Origin: Euzebyales bacterium
GTDB lineage: Bacteria > Actinomycetota > Nitriliruptoria > Euzebyales > JAHELV01
Assembly: GCA_036374135.1 (NCBI GenBank)
Contig: DASUUK010000063.1
Coordinates: 1 to 38,133 of the forward strand
DNA length: 38,133 nucleotides
Direction of reading: 5' to 3'
Made by a program: the position numbers and the translations under genes
Part shown: one piece after another, positions 20,696 through 26,428 of the stretch
Layout of the letters: every line of letters starts with the position of its first letter
Position numbering within the stretch: position 1 is the stretch's first letter
Notes under the pieces: model-generated
Database searches by the model: none
What the model saw: only the letters and a program-made list of their open reading frames with translations
Told to the model about the DNA's origin: nothing

Positions 20696-22651
20696 TCAGC
20701 GGTCGGAGCGCTGCACGACATCGCTCCACCAGGCGTACAGCTGATCTGCCGCGTCAGGGTCGTCGAGACGGGCACTGCCCATCAACGGCGCGTCCGGCAC
20801 GGTCCAGGAAAGACCCGCGGTGCTGCTGTCGACAGCGCACACGACGCGGCCCGATCCGGCACTGCCGGCATAGGCGTGGGTCGCCCGCCGGTCGACGCGG
20901 CAGTCTCCGTCACCAGCCGAGCGGGCCAGTGCGTCGAACGCGTCATCGCGTTCGGTCGTCGAGCCGAAGCGACGGAACACGACCCGGGTCGGTGTCTGTG
21001 CGTCCTCCGCACATGAGATCGCCACCTGCTCACCGGCGAGCGGATCCCGGGTCGGTGGCCGGCAGGCCTGCGCGTCGTACACACCCAGGGCATCGAGCAG
21101 TTCGCGCTGGTCGGCATCCAGTGCGGCCCCGTCGGCCGTGTCGGCCCCACGGGACGCGGAACCACCCGGGTCGAGGTCGCCGCCCCGCACCATCGCCCAG
21201 ATGAGACCGAGCACCAGCAGCATGCCGACGACCACGACGACGACCGCGTGCCCACCGAGCCCGTCACTGCGGCCGGTGTCACCGACGTCGCGATCCGTGG
21301 GCCGCCGGCGGGCGGCGGTGCCGGCCGGCTGCGGTGCTCCAGCGCGCCCGGGTGGGCGTGCGCCCTCGTCAGCGCCGGATGCACGTGCGCCCGCGTCCGT
21401 GGGCGGCGCGTCGGCCCGGTCCGCTGACCCGTCCGCGGGGCGGTCCACGCCGTCCGCACGGTCGCCGAGGTCGGCGCGGTCGCCGAGGTCTGCACGGTCG
21501 CCGAGTTCTGCACGGTCGCCGAGTTCTGCACGGTCGCCGACGACCGCCGTGGATGCGGCCGCCTCACCGGTCGACGGGACCGTGGTCGGCGGGAGCTCAT
21601 CCGAGGACGTGCCGGTCGTCGTGTGGTCCTGTGGTCGCACGACCTGGGTGCGCACCTCTGCGCGCTCGAACCGCCGGGTCCGCCCCTCGCGGGATTCGGG
21701 CGGTCCACCTGGCTGCCCGGCCGGCGGCACCGCCCCGGCGGCGGGAGGTCGCCTGGCGGCGGATGGCTGCGCGGCCGCTGTCGGTGATCTCGCCAGCACG
21801 TCCTCCGCGGCTGCGGTGAGTGCGGCGCACCGCCGGTACCGCCGCGCGGAGTCCTTGGCCATCGCCGTGGCGATCACCCCATCCCAGGCGGAGGACAGGT
21901 CCGCGCGCACCTCGGACACCCTGGGCGGGGCCTCGTTGAGGTGGGCGTTGACCATGGCCGCCAGATCGCCCTCGAACGGCTTGCGTCCCGTGACGCACTC
22001 GAACAGCACACACCCCAGCGCGTACACGTCGGTGCGACCGTCGATCCGTGCGCCCGTGCGCATCTGCTCGGGCGCCGCATAGGCCAGCGTCGCCGGCGCC
22101 AGTCCCTGGGTCACGGGGTTGTCGGTCGTCTGATCGATCGGTCGGCTGATGCCGAAGTCGGCGAGGTAGACGGTGTCGGTGTCGGCCAGGCACAGGATGT
22201 TGCCGGGCTTGATGTCGCGGTGCACCAGCCCTCTGGCGTGGGCGTGGTCGAGCGCCGACCCGATCTGGCGGATGACCGAAACCGCGCGCCGCTGGGCCAG
22301 CGCGCCGTCCTCGAGCTCGTACCGCAGATCGCGTCCGGCCACGAACCGCATGACCAGGTACAGCAGACCGTCCCGGTCGCCGCCGTCGTAGACCGTCACG
22401 ATGTTGGGGTGATCGAGGCTCGCCGCGATGTTCGTCTCACGCCGGAAGCGTCGCTGCTCGGTCGGCGTGAAGTCCTCTGACGGGCGCAGCATCTTGATCG
22501 CGACGTCCCGTTCGAGCAGGCGGTCCCAGGCGCGGTAGACACGACCGAACCCACCGCGGCCCAGCACGGTCGTGATCTCGTACCGGTCGGTCCAGATGTC
22601 GCCCGGCTGCGGCAACCCAGCCACGTCCTGGAGGCTCCCGATCGTCGTCAT
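20696..22651 (-). CDS. Membrane Ser/Thr protein kinase (PknB-like) with extracellular Cys domain
   Basis: A 651-residue receptor-like kinase. The kinase domain (about 24-290) has the glycine loop GRGGFGRVY, catalytic Lys53, the HRDIKPGN loop (Asp146) and DFG at 165-167. A long Pro/Ala/Asp-rich linker includes five tandem GDRA(E/D)(L/G) hexapeptides. One membrane helix (VVVVVVGMLLVLGLIWAMV) precedes an extracellular domain of about 130 residues with four Cys and no PASTA repeat. It would phosphorylate cytosolic targets in response to an outside signal. ATG 22651 starts just before the kinase domain, after a GGGG-rich site; an earlier GTG-type start is not needed. It faces the GAF-ANTAR regulator tail-to-tail. 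Confidence 0.9.
   Translation of the reverse strand: MTTIGSLQDVAGLPQPGDIWTDRYEITTVLGRGGFGRVYRAWDRLLERDVAIKMLRPSEDFTPTEQRRFRRETNIAASLDHPNIVTVYDGGDRDGLLYLVMRFVAGRDLRYELEDGALAQRRAVSVIRQIGSALDHAHARGLVHRDIKPGNILCLADTDTVYLADFGISRPIDQTTDNPVTQGLAPATLAYAAPEQMRTGARIDGRTDVYALGCVLFECVTGRKPFEGDLAAMVNAHLNEAPPRVSEVRADLSSAWDGVIATAMAKDSARRYRRCAALTAAAEDVLARSPTAAAQPSAARRPPAAGAVPPAGQPGGPPESREGRTRRFERAEVRTQVVRPQDHTTTGTSSDELPPTTVPSTGEAAASTAVVGDRAELGDRAELGDRADLGDRADLGDRADGVDRPADGSADRADAPPTDAGARASGADEGARPPGRAGAPQPAGTAARRRPTDRDVGDTGRSDGLGGHAVVVVVVGMLLVLGLIWAMVRGGDLDPGGSASRGADTADGAALDADQRELLDALGVYDAQACRPPTRDPLAGEQVAISCAEDAQTPTRVVFRRFGSTTERDDAFDALARSAGDGDCRVDRRATHAYAGSAGSGRVVCAVDSSTAGLSWTVPDAPLMGSARLDDPDAADQLYAWWSDVVQRSDR
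21456..21541. repeat. 18-bp in-frame tandem repeat in kinase linker
   Basis: Four full and one partial 18-bp units (type GCACGGTCGCCGAGTTCT) encode the GDRAEL/GDRADL hexapeptides on the minus strand. Copies three and four are identical, so the array is recent and probably length-variable. It lies in the disordered linker between the kinase domain and the membrane helix. Confidence 0.85.
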
Positions 22652-22817
22652 TGCCCCGCCGACGCCCGCACGGTGGAGTCGCGTGAGCGCGCCCAGCCTC
22701 CGGACGTCCCGGTGGCCGGCATGCGCCAGAGATGGTAGTCCACCTCGCGTGTCGCCGAGGGCACGGGGCGGCACACGATCCTATCCGGTCGGCCGCGACG
22801 TTCGTTCCGGGGCGGTG

Positions 22818-23486
22818 CTACCCGCCGGTCTCGGCCCGGAGCTTGCGGACGGCCTCCATGTAGCGGTCCATCTGCGCGACATACCGCTTCGAGTCCTCAG
22901 CGGCTGCCGGGTGGCGCAGACCCATGGCCTTGGCCGCGAACTTCGCGCCGCGGGCGTACGGCAGCAGCGCCCTCACCGGCATCGCATCATCGCCGGGTTG
23001 GGGGTCGACGTGGTCGAGCGTCGGCTGCCCGGTGGGTGGCAGCCCGAGCCCACTGACATGCGCGAGCAGTTCGTCCTCGGTGATGCGGTCCGCGAAGTCG
23101 CGTCCCACCTGGCGGATCCGCTCGGTGCCCTCGGGATCGAACACGAACACCCCTGGCCTGCCGATGTCGCCCCGACTCGAGCCCGGGTTCCACGCGTCCA
23201 GCGGCCGCAGCATCTGCGTGCCGTCGGGATCCGACAGCATCGCGAACGGCAGCCGGAGCTTGGTGATCATCGCGGCGTTGCGTGCGGGAGCGTCGACGCT
23301 CACACCGGCGATGCGCGCGCCGGCTGCCAGGAACTCGTCATAGCGCTGTGCCAAGCTGACCAGCTGGCAGTTGCAGTACGGTCACCAGTCGCCGCGCAAC
23401 GTGACCAGCACCATCCCCGCGTCGTCGACGTGGTCGGCGAGTGTCCACTCGCTGTCGTTCTGGTCGCGGACGGTGGCGTTGATCAT
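22818..23486 (-). CDS. Peroxiredoxin-like (AhpC/TSA family) selenoprotein, UGA at codon 35
   Basis: A 222-residue thioredoxin-fold protein if the in-frame UGA at 23384-23382 is read as selenocysteine. Before it: MINATVRDQNDSEWTLADHV then DDAGMVLVTLRGDW. After it: PYCNCQLVSLAQRYDEFLAA. Family members have RGDWCPYC at this place, so UGA replaces exactly the peroxidatic/redox Cys and leaves a UxxC motif with Cys38. The downstream part (AGVSVDAPARNAAMITKLRL, FAMLSDPDGTQMLRPL) is normal AhpC/TSA sequence and in the same frame. A SECIS-like hairpin follows the UGA. The start ATG 23486 has GGGGGA upstream. A truncated start after the UGA would lose the active site. It probably reduces peroxides or disulfides in the cytosol. 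It is divergent from the AI-2E-type transporter gene. Confidence 0.88.
23349..23369 (-). promoter_or_regulatory. Candidate bacterial SECIS element
   Basis: Beginning 12 nt after the UGA, the minus-strand mRNA forms an 8-bp stem: UGCC-AGCU pairs with AGCU-GGCA around a GGUC tetraloop, with one bulged U (23353) in the 3' arm. The loop lies 20 nt after the UGA. A GGUC apical loop and a bulged U are the features that SelB recognises in the E. coli fdhF element, although there the bulge is in the 5' arm. The element lies inside the coding region, as bacterial SECIS elements do. Confidence 0.75.
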
Positions 23487-25029: not shown

Positions 25030-25131
25030 GCCATCCAGAGCGGCTGAGGGACCGGCCCGACGACGCCGCCGCAACCGGGTCACGACTGGTGACCGAGGTG
25101 CGAACTCCGGCCCCCTCGGGGGGAAGATGGC
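25030..25131 (+). ncRNA. SAM-I riboswitch (S-box leader) aptamer
   Basis: The region matches the SAM-I consensus. P1 is GCCATC (25030-25035) paired with GATGGC (25126-25131). The conserved core CAGAGCGGCTGAGGGACCGG is followed by CCCGACGACGCCGCCGCAACC, where the GCAACC element is intact. P3 is GGTCAC paired with GTGACC, and the conserved AGGTGC follows, then a CCCCC/GGGGG P4 hairpin and GAAGATGG. It binds S-adenosylmethionine in the nascent mRNA. It sits 58 nt upstream of the threonine synthase start codon. Confidence 0.93.
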
Positions 25132-25142
25132 CGCATACGCTC

Positions 25143-25183
25143 GTCCTCCCTCCGCGCGACCTCAACGCACCCAGTGGAAGGAC
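25143..25183 (+). promoter_or_regulatory. Possible expression platform: Shine-Dalgarno sequestering helix
   Basis: GTCCTCCC at 25143-25150 can pair with GGAAGGAC at 25176-25183, seven of eight bases matching. The second arm includes the thrC ribosome-binding site. There is no T-run, so control of translation initiation is more likely than transcription termination. How aptamer folding would switch this helix is not clear from sequence alone. Confidence 0.5.
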
Positions 25184-25189
25184 GACGCG

Positions 25190-26428
25190 GTGACCTATCT
25201 CTCCGCCCTGCGCTGTCGAGGCTGTGGCAGCGAAGCAGCGATCGCGCCGGCGCATGTCTGCGACCGGTGCTTCGGCCCGTATGAGGCCGTGTACGACTAC
25301 GACGCGCTCGCATCCGACGTCAGCCGTGATGCGATCGCAGCCGGTCCCGACAGCCTGTGGCGCTACCGCCCGCTGCTGCCGGTGCCGACCGATGATCCGA
25401 TCGACCCGGTGTGGCTGGGTGGCGGGTTGACGCCGCTGGTCCGCGCCCCGCGGTTGGGCGCAGCGCTGGGCCTGGACGACCTGTGGCTGAAGAACGACAC
25501 CGTCAATCCGACCTGGTCGTTCAAGGATCGGGTCGTGACCGTGGCGTTGACGGCGGCCAGGGCGTTCGGGTTCACGACGGTGGCGTGTGCGTCGACCGGC
25601 AACCTGGCGAACTCGGTCGCGGCGCACGCGGCGGCGGCCGACCTCGACGCGTACGTGTTCATCCCCCACGACCTCGAGCAGACCAAGGTGCTGGCCAGCG
25701 CCGTCTACGGGCCCAACCTCGTGGCCGTCAAGGGCAACTACGACGACGTCAGCCGGCTGTGCAGCGAGGTGGCCGACGAGTACGAGTGGGCGTTCGTCAA
25801 CGTCAACATGCGGCCGTTCTACGCCGAGGGCTCCAAGACGATCGGGTTCGAGATCGCCGAGCAGTTGGGTTGGGTGTTGCCCGCGCAGGTCATCGCGCCG
25901 ATGGCGTCGGGCTCGATGATGGTCAAGATCGACAAGGCGTTCCGCGAACTGGTCCGCACCGGTCTGGTCGATGACGCGCCGTGGGCGATGTTCGGCGCGC
26001 AGGCGCAGGGATGCTCGCCGATCGCGGCGGCGTTCGCCGCCGGCGAGGACGAGCCCACGCCCGTCAAGCCGGACACGATCGCCAAGTCGCTGGCCATCGG
26101 CAACCCGGCCGACGGGGGCCCGGCCATCTCCGTCGCGCGCCGCACCGACGGTGGCATGGCGGCGGCGGCCGACGATGAGATCGCCGAGGGCATGCGGTTG
26201 CTGGCACGCACCGAGGGCGTCTTCGCCGAGACCGCCGGTGGGGTGACCGTCGCCGCCCTGCGCTCGCTGGCGGCATCGGGTGCGTTGGACCGCTCGGCTC
26301 GCACGGTGGCGGTGATCAGCGGCAACGGCCTCAAGACGGTGGACGCCGTCCCAGCGACGCCGACCGTGACGGTGCGCCCCTCCCTGGACGACTTCGAGGA
26401 GGCAGCGGGCCTGGTCGACGCCGCCTGA
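25190..26428 (+). CDS. thrC: Threonine synthase
   Basis: A 412-residue PLP enzyme that converts O-phosphohomoserine to threonine. The N-terminus has a small zinc-ribbon-like Cys set (LRCRGCG ... HVCDRCFGPYEAVYDYD), typical of this class of threonine synthase. The PLP lysine is Lys112 in NPTWSFKDR, and the phosphate-binding loop is in ACASTGNLANS. The length is normal. GTG 25190 is chosen because GGAAGG lies 7-8 nt upstream; an earlier ATG at 25127 lies inside the riboswitch and is rejected. The SAM riboswitch upstream links its expression to methionine/SAM status, consistent with competition for the homoserine branch, or with a methionine-related activity of this paralogue. Confidence 0.9.
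   Translation: MTYLSALRCRGCGSEAAIAPAHVCDRCFGPYEAVYDYDALASDVSRDAIAAGPDSLWRYRPLLPVPTDDPIDPVWLGGGLTPLVRAPRLGAALGLDDLWLKNDTVNPTWSFKDRVVTVALTAARAFGFTTVACASTGNLANSVAAHAAAADLDAYVFIPHDLEQTKVLASAVYGPNLVAVKGNYDDVSRLCSEVADEYEWAFVNVNMRPFYAEGSKTIGFEIAEQLGWVLPAQVIAPMASGSMMVKIDKAFRELVRTGLVDDAPWAMFGAQAQGCSPIAAAFAAGEDEPTPVKPDTIAKSLAIGNPADGGPAISVARRTDGGMAAAADDEIAEGMRLLARTEGVFAETAGGVTVAALRSLAASGALDRSARTVAVISGNGLKTVDAVPATPTVTVRPSLDDFEEAAGLVDAA

Follow-up and report, generated by a model that had tools for sequence, protein, structure and literature searches.

A conserved in-frame UGA in a Euzebyales bacterium marks a predicted actinobacterial subfamily of peroxiredoxin-like UxxC selenoproteins

A 2005 study (PMC1088965) described peroxiredoxin (Prx)-like selenoproteins in which UxxC stands in place of TxxU. 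A study from 2008 (PMC2398784) distinguished several subfamilies of them, and the table of a 2026 review lists them as "Prx-like thiol:disulfide oxidoreductase" (PF00578, UxxC/UxxU; PMC13188914). The type is defined by Prx homology combined with UxxC replacing TxxU or TxxC (PMC1088965), and both features are found in the predicted product of a gene located in the window, i.e., the 38,133-nucleotide stretch of Euzebyales DNA analyzed here. Like the proteins known from the Sargasso Sea and GOS selenoproteomes, this product combines distant Prx homology with a thioredoxin-like UxxC (PMC1088965, PMC2398784, PMC13188914); it differs in being actinobacterial, in its RGDWUPYC sequence, and in a helical C-terminal extension, the distinction being drawn from published descriptions. 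The published motif of selenocysteine (Sec)-containing Prx is TxxU (PMC1088965), whereas here the putative Sec is positioned three residues earlier. PrxU (NF040737) belongs to the same superfamily and likewise has Sec in a Prx-type protein, but the window protein scores 20.4 bits with this model against a cut-off of 270. The best NCBIfam match is the SelL-related redox protein (NF040769), which matches all 28 members of the family and gives 35.4 bits for the window protein, its cut-off being 120; the protein stays below the cut-off of every NCBIfam model. The literature found on this subfamily in Actinobacteria consists of general selenoproteome papers, and with few subscription papers covered it is weak evidence of absence. 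Since UxxC Prx-like proteins have been published since 2005 and the NCBIfam models remain below cut-off, the genes represent a real, un-modelled actinobacterial subfamily of an already known type, as judged by comparison with published members by description.

The reading frame from ATG to TAG is interrupted once in 222 codons, by a TGA in the context RGDW-U-PYC (Table 1), and the coordinates, frame, and motif given in the preliminary description were exact. The read-through product belongs to the AhpC/TSA superfamily (PF00578, 73 bits versus a gathering cut-off of 26); the Pfam AhpC-TSA domain extends over residues 3 to 121 (E value of 2.7e-20) and crosses the UGA. The mechanical ORF list contains only a 178-amino-acid ORF starting from a TTG (22818-23354), which is the truncation that had been predicted. 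Although this ORF exists mechanically, and the UGA could in principle be a real stop with the shorter protein made from the TTG, this is highly improbable: the 34 codons preceding the UGA encode conserved protein, with D8, W14, L16, and R31 to W34 invariant in the family alignment, the AhpC-TSA match includes residues from this part, and the short form would be devoid of the UxxC motif. Most orthologues possess a possible start codon 32 to 36 codons 5' of the UGA, in agreement with ATG 23486. In all five pairs tested, dN was lower than dS on each side of the UGA, and substitutions among the orthologues flanking it are mostly synonymous on both sides; in L020/L021, the most closely related pair, the 33 codons upstream of the UGA provide few changes when taken by themselves (10, 2, and 8 by codon position).

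Table 1. Positions of the selenoprotein gene, its elements, and neighboring features in the window
Feature	Position	Strand	Remarks
Prx-like UxxC selenoprotein gene (predicted)	22818..23486	-	222 aa, Sec at residue 35, ATG 23486, stop TAG 22820-22818
In-frame UGA (U35)	23382..23384	-	TGA in 23/23 full-length orthologues; TGC in Rubrobacter group
Cys38	23373..23375	-	Second half of UxxC; aligned with peroxidatic Cys of peroxiredoxins
Predicted SECIS hairpin, GCCAGCU-GGUC-AGC(U)UGGC	23350..23368	-	Synonymous freeze, 99.4% standard pairs, MFE helix
Apical loop GGUC	23358-23361	-	Part of predicted SECIS hairpin
C-terminal extension, residues about 151-222	22821..23036	-	Two long helices, 171-191 and 193-220; beyond part aligned to peroxiredoxin structures
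Ser/Thr protein kinase gene	20696-22774	-	Just downstream of selenoprotein gene
Antisense ORF, 328 aa	22572-23558	+	Opposite selenoprotein gene, mirrored in most relatives
SAM riboswitch RF00162	25028-25133	+	74.6 bits, directly upstream of threonine synthase gene
Threonine synthase gene	25127-26428	+	TIGR00260 over cut-off

When 66 genomes of the class were searched, six orthologues beyond the window's own were obtained, each with one TGA. An alignment-based scan of 84,980 species genomes, executed with patterns free of TGA bias (one spells Cys at the site, the other lies downstream), led to 80 loci. Every actinobacterial orthologue of 38 to 70% identity has TGA at the U position; these are 24 other records from Acidimicrobiia, Euzebyaceae, Actinomycetospora, and others (set L020-L026, L052-L068, and L074, with L051 and L069 repeating L022 and L026). 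Among the full-length orthologues, the TGA column is common to 23/23, with no other in-frame stop, which goes far past what chance could produce. The Cys homologues with which a comparison had been proposed were found in Rubrobacteraceae (L070-L073 and L077; 33 to 41% identity): they share the full-length architecture (RGDWCPYCNGQL) but have TGC for TGA at the same position, and they have not kept the hairpin sequence described below. More distant RGDWCPYC proteins have TGC or TGT in all cases. The gene thus shows the combination by which selenoprotein genes are recognized: a UGA in frame at a redox site, and homologues with Sec as well as homologues with Cys. One base change would give Cys, as in the sister group, and the window stems from a draft assembly of 115 contigs, so that a sequencing error (the codon truly being TGC or TGT) or a decaying gene has to be weighed. 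Sequencing error is very unlikely because the identical TGA occurs in more than 20 independent assemblies; furthermore, each of the 23 full-length genes has one TGA and no other stop, and purifying selection is evident on both sides of the UGA. For the window gene, we regard error or decay as having a practically negligible probability. As an explanation for the whole family, it is refuted by the 23 full-length genes interrupted by TGA only.

In the tree, the 23 Sec rows form a group with moderate support (91/90). In the orthologue of a Rubrobacter MAG (L104), 12 nt spanning the site are duplicated in tandem (positions about 612-640), resulting in two in-frame TGAs and the sequence RGDWUPDWUPDCNGQL; either the gene truly encodes two Sec residues or the assembly is faulty here. 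Since this Rubrobacter gene also has TGA, within the duplication, either Sec is the ancestral state, replaced by Cys in most Rubrobacteraceae, or it originated on two occasions. In the same-genus orthologue L026/L069, the TGA is present, and a stretch 3' of the hairpin appears frameshifted before the sequence is in frame again, which is likely a draft assembly error. No relative was encoded on the viral contigs searched.

The preliminary description had made its case dependent on selA, selB, selD, and a tRNA-Sec gene being present, and all four were found in the host genome (draft, 3.98 Mb, 115 contigs, 96% complete). Specifically, SelB (313.9 bits, over cut-off), SelA (449.3 bits), and tRNA-Sec (69 bits versus a gathering score of 47; tRNA-SeC with anticodon TCA according to ARAGORN) are encoded on contig C113, and SelD (348.7 bits) is encoded on contig C74. 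The selD gene itself contains one in-frame TGA at the GxGU motif (FSHGAGUACKLAPGEL), and a formate dehydrogenase (FdhA) frame on C74 contains a UGA in IENQARIUHSSTVPGL, followed 3' by the hairpin GGTCCCC-GGTCT-GGGGACC with the loop GGUCU. We take these positions, GAGUACK in SelD and ENQARIU in FdhA, to be the usual Sec sites of their families. The two genes, located about 12 kb apart on the same contig (selD at about 9158, L018; formate dehydrogenase alpha subunit at about 21598, L136), are two further apparent selenoprotein genes of this genome. With SelA, SelB, SelD, tRNA-Sec, and the UGAs in SelD and FdhA, the host organism possesses the Sec trait. Reading of the UGA as another amino acid, either Cys via a variant tRNA-Sec or Trp via a code change, draws on the Cys found at this position in relatives and on nothing specific; the canonical tRNA-Sec, selA, selB, and selD speak against it, and the code is not reassigned, because TGA is the terminal stop of several orthologues. 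This possibility is therefore very remote.

Across the gene-bearing genomes, selA was over cut-off in six of seven within the class and in 16 of 18 outside it, with one additional partial match. Among the genomes with both selA and the gene is that of a cultured organism, Actinomycetospora cinnamomea DSM 45771 (orthologue L059). Genomes G069 and G074, without selA over cut-off, have SelB over cut-off. An orthologue-bearing MAG (G006) is the sole genome with neither selA nor SelB over cut-off, perhaps due to assembly incompleteness or binning. Since selA is over cut-off in 44 of the 66 class genomes anyway, its co-occurrence with the gene within the class is a matter of consistency and not a strong association.

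A candidate SECIS element is located inside the coding sequence, starting 13 nt 3' of the UGA, with its apical loop 20 nt after the UGA. Counted from the UGA, codons +5 to +12 had a synonymous identity of 0.738, compared to an expected value of 0.388. This best 8-codon window, beginning at +5, has an excess of 0.35, while the other windows have a mean of 0.023 (standard deviation of 0.043; maximum of 0.151). Frozen codons include +5 Gly (0.91 observed, 0.33 expected), +6 Gln (1.00, 0.66), +8 Val (1.00, 0.43), and +9 Ser (1.00, 0.24); in the window gene, codon +5 has changed from Gly to Cys (GGC to TGC), just outside the hairpin. The frozen bases have the family form GCCAGCU-GGUC-AGC(Y)UGGC, with standard pairs in 99.4% of 175 pair cells (25 sequences), compared to at most 48% in a control in which the partner was slid by 1 to 3 columns. 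Changes in the stem are one-sided and still paired (C-G to U-G in four sequences, G-C to G-U in one, and U-A to U-G in one), with one unpaired exception; no two-sided compensatory changes occur in the stem pairs of the 25 sequences. The MFE fold contains the same helix with the bulge placed differently, and we assume that the GGUC loop resembles that of the E. coli fdhF element. Folding energy was tried as support and dropped, the 42-nt hairpin region being no more stable than shuffled sequences (z of 0.70). As folding energy is not significant and double changes are absent, the case for a SECIS element rests on the codon freeze. Hairpin position just 3' of the UGA and a G in the loop agree with the small, guanosine-containing apical loop of bacterial SECIS elements (PMC1088965). 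Codon freeze and known geometry together fit the prediction of a SECIS element.

Taken together, the Sec machinery, the TGA in every orthologue of 38 to 70% identity, the TGC in the sister group, and the synonymous freeze make it very probable (roughly 95%) that UGA codon 35 is decoded as Sec and that the gene encodes a Prx-like, thioredoxin-fold selenoprotein. The earlier proposal of a Sec-encoding gene is thus strengthened by the machinery in the genome, the TGA in all 23 full-length orthologues, and the predicted SECIS element. Decoding by SelB, tRNA-Sec, and a hairpin is the established bacterial pathway; judging from the parts found, SelB and Sec-tRNA would read codon 35 guided by the hairpin 13 nt downstream.

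The predicted structural model of the protein (pLDDT of 94.7, pTM of 0.91) displays a Prx fold. Its residues 1 to 150 match peroxiredoxins, including Bcp4 (Z of 19.4) and AhpE (18.7); the best match has a Z of 19.4 and an rmsd of 1.9 over 149 residues. Matches also include Bcp/PrxQ as well as the oxidoreductase ResA, the closest structures being peroxidases. Within the C-terminal extension, Y177, G180, and R191 are invariant across the family, the Cys group included.

When the protein is aligned to peroxiredoxins of solved structure, U35 is found opposite the Thr/Ser of (T/S)xxC, and C38 opposite the peroxidatic Cys. In place of the catalytic Arg, the family has an invariant residue, Pro111; its counterpart is Arg in the PrxQ-type structures 2cx3 and 2ywn, and the Ala introduced by engineering in 4xih (AhpE R116A). 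Instead of the classical combination of (T/S)xxC and catalytic Arg, the protein has UxxC and Pro111. Because U35 lies on Thr/Ser, Cys38 on the peroxidatic Cys, and Pro in the Arg column, the predicted Sec35 is, by alignment, the residue with which a thioredoxin-type UxxC motif begins, and the classical peroxidase site is not intact. The UxxC redox motif noted previously, with Sec35 and Cys38, is confirmed in the read-through frame; the accompanying statement that the UGA replaces the active-site Cys of AhpC/TSA proteins holds for the CxxC relatives but not for classical AhpC/TSA, in which this position is Thr/Ser and the catalytic Cys follows three residues later. Pro111 may correspond to the cis-Pro of thioredoxin-like proteins.

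Most likely, Sec35 and Cys38 would constitute a thiol/selenol-disulfide redox center. The Sec35 selenolate would attack a disulfide or peroxide substrate, Cys38 would resolve the intermediate as a selenenylsulfide, and a donor of the thioredoxin or mycothiol type may recycle the latter; this cycle would reduce disulfides or, less likely, peroxides. A true peroxidase, with Cys38 peroxidatic and Sec35 resolving or the reverse, is a rival on function and not on Sec decoding. It is in line with the structural matches, the best of which have a Prx fold (AhpE and Bcp/PrxQ among them), and with the alignment of C38 with the peroxidatic Cys, but Sec stands in place of the TxxC Thr/Ser and an invariant Pro in place of the catalytic Arg; the peroxide-activating site known from peroxiredoxins is therefore absent as such. 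We give the peroxidase about one chance in three and consider oxidoreductase activity moderately likely.

The genomic surroundings give no functional clue: in the same-genus genome L021 the orthologue is flanked by genes for an AI-2E-type transporter and a Ser/Thr kinase, part of the kinase gene has a match beside the orthologue in L023, and beyond these two genomes the neighborhood is not conserved. We consider the antisense ORF to be a shadow frame, as expected opposite a GC-rich gene. Because the SAM riboswitch extends over the start of the mechanical ORF of the threonine synthase gene, the true start of this gene is probably later; a SAM riboswitch ahead of threonine synthase suggests that the threonine and methionine branches are coupled.

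Somewhat short of even odds, we put forward that Sec was already present in this undescribed actinobacterial subfamily when Acidimicrobiia, some Actinomycetes, and the class containing Euzebyaceae last shared an ancestor, and that the subfamily combines a UxxC Prx-like domain with a conserved helical C-terminal extension having its own function (e.g., partner docking or oligomerization), Rubrobacteraceae having mostly turned to Cys. The Sec/Cys pairs (Acidimicrobiia versus Rubrobacter) represent a natural comparison of selenium's contribution. For a GC-rich phylum, codon freeze defines the SECIS element predicted here unusually well, and this would make actinobacterial Sec decoding easy to test by reporter. 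In about two dozen actinobacterial genomes, normal annotation would truncate the members of this conserved family, with loss of the active site; since no NCBIfam model covers the window protein at cut-off, a new model of this kind would help to correct the truncated genes.
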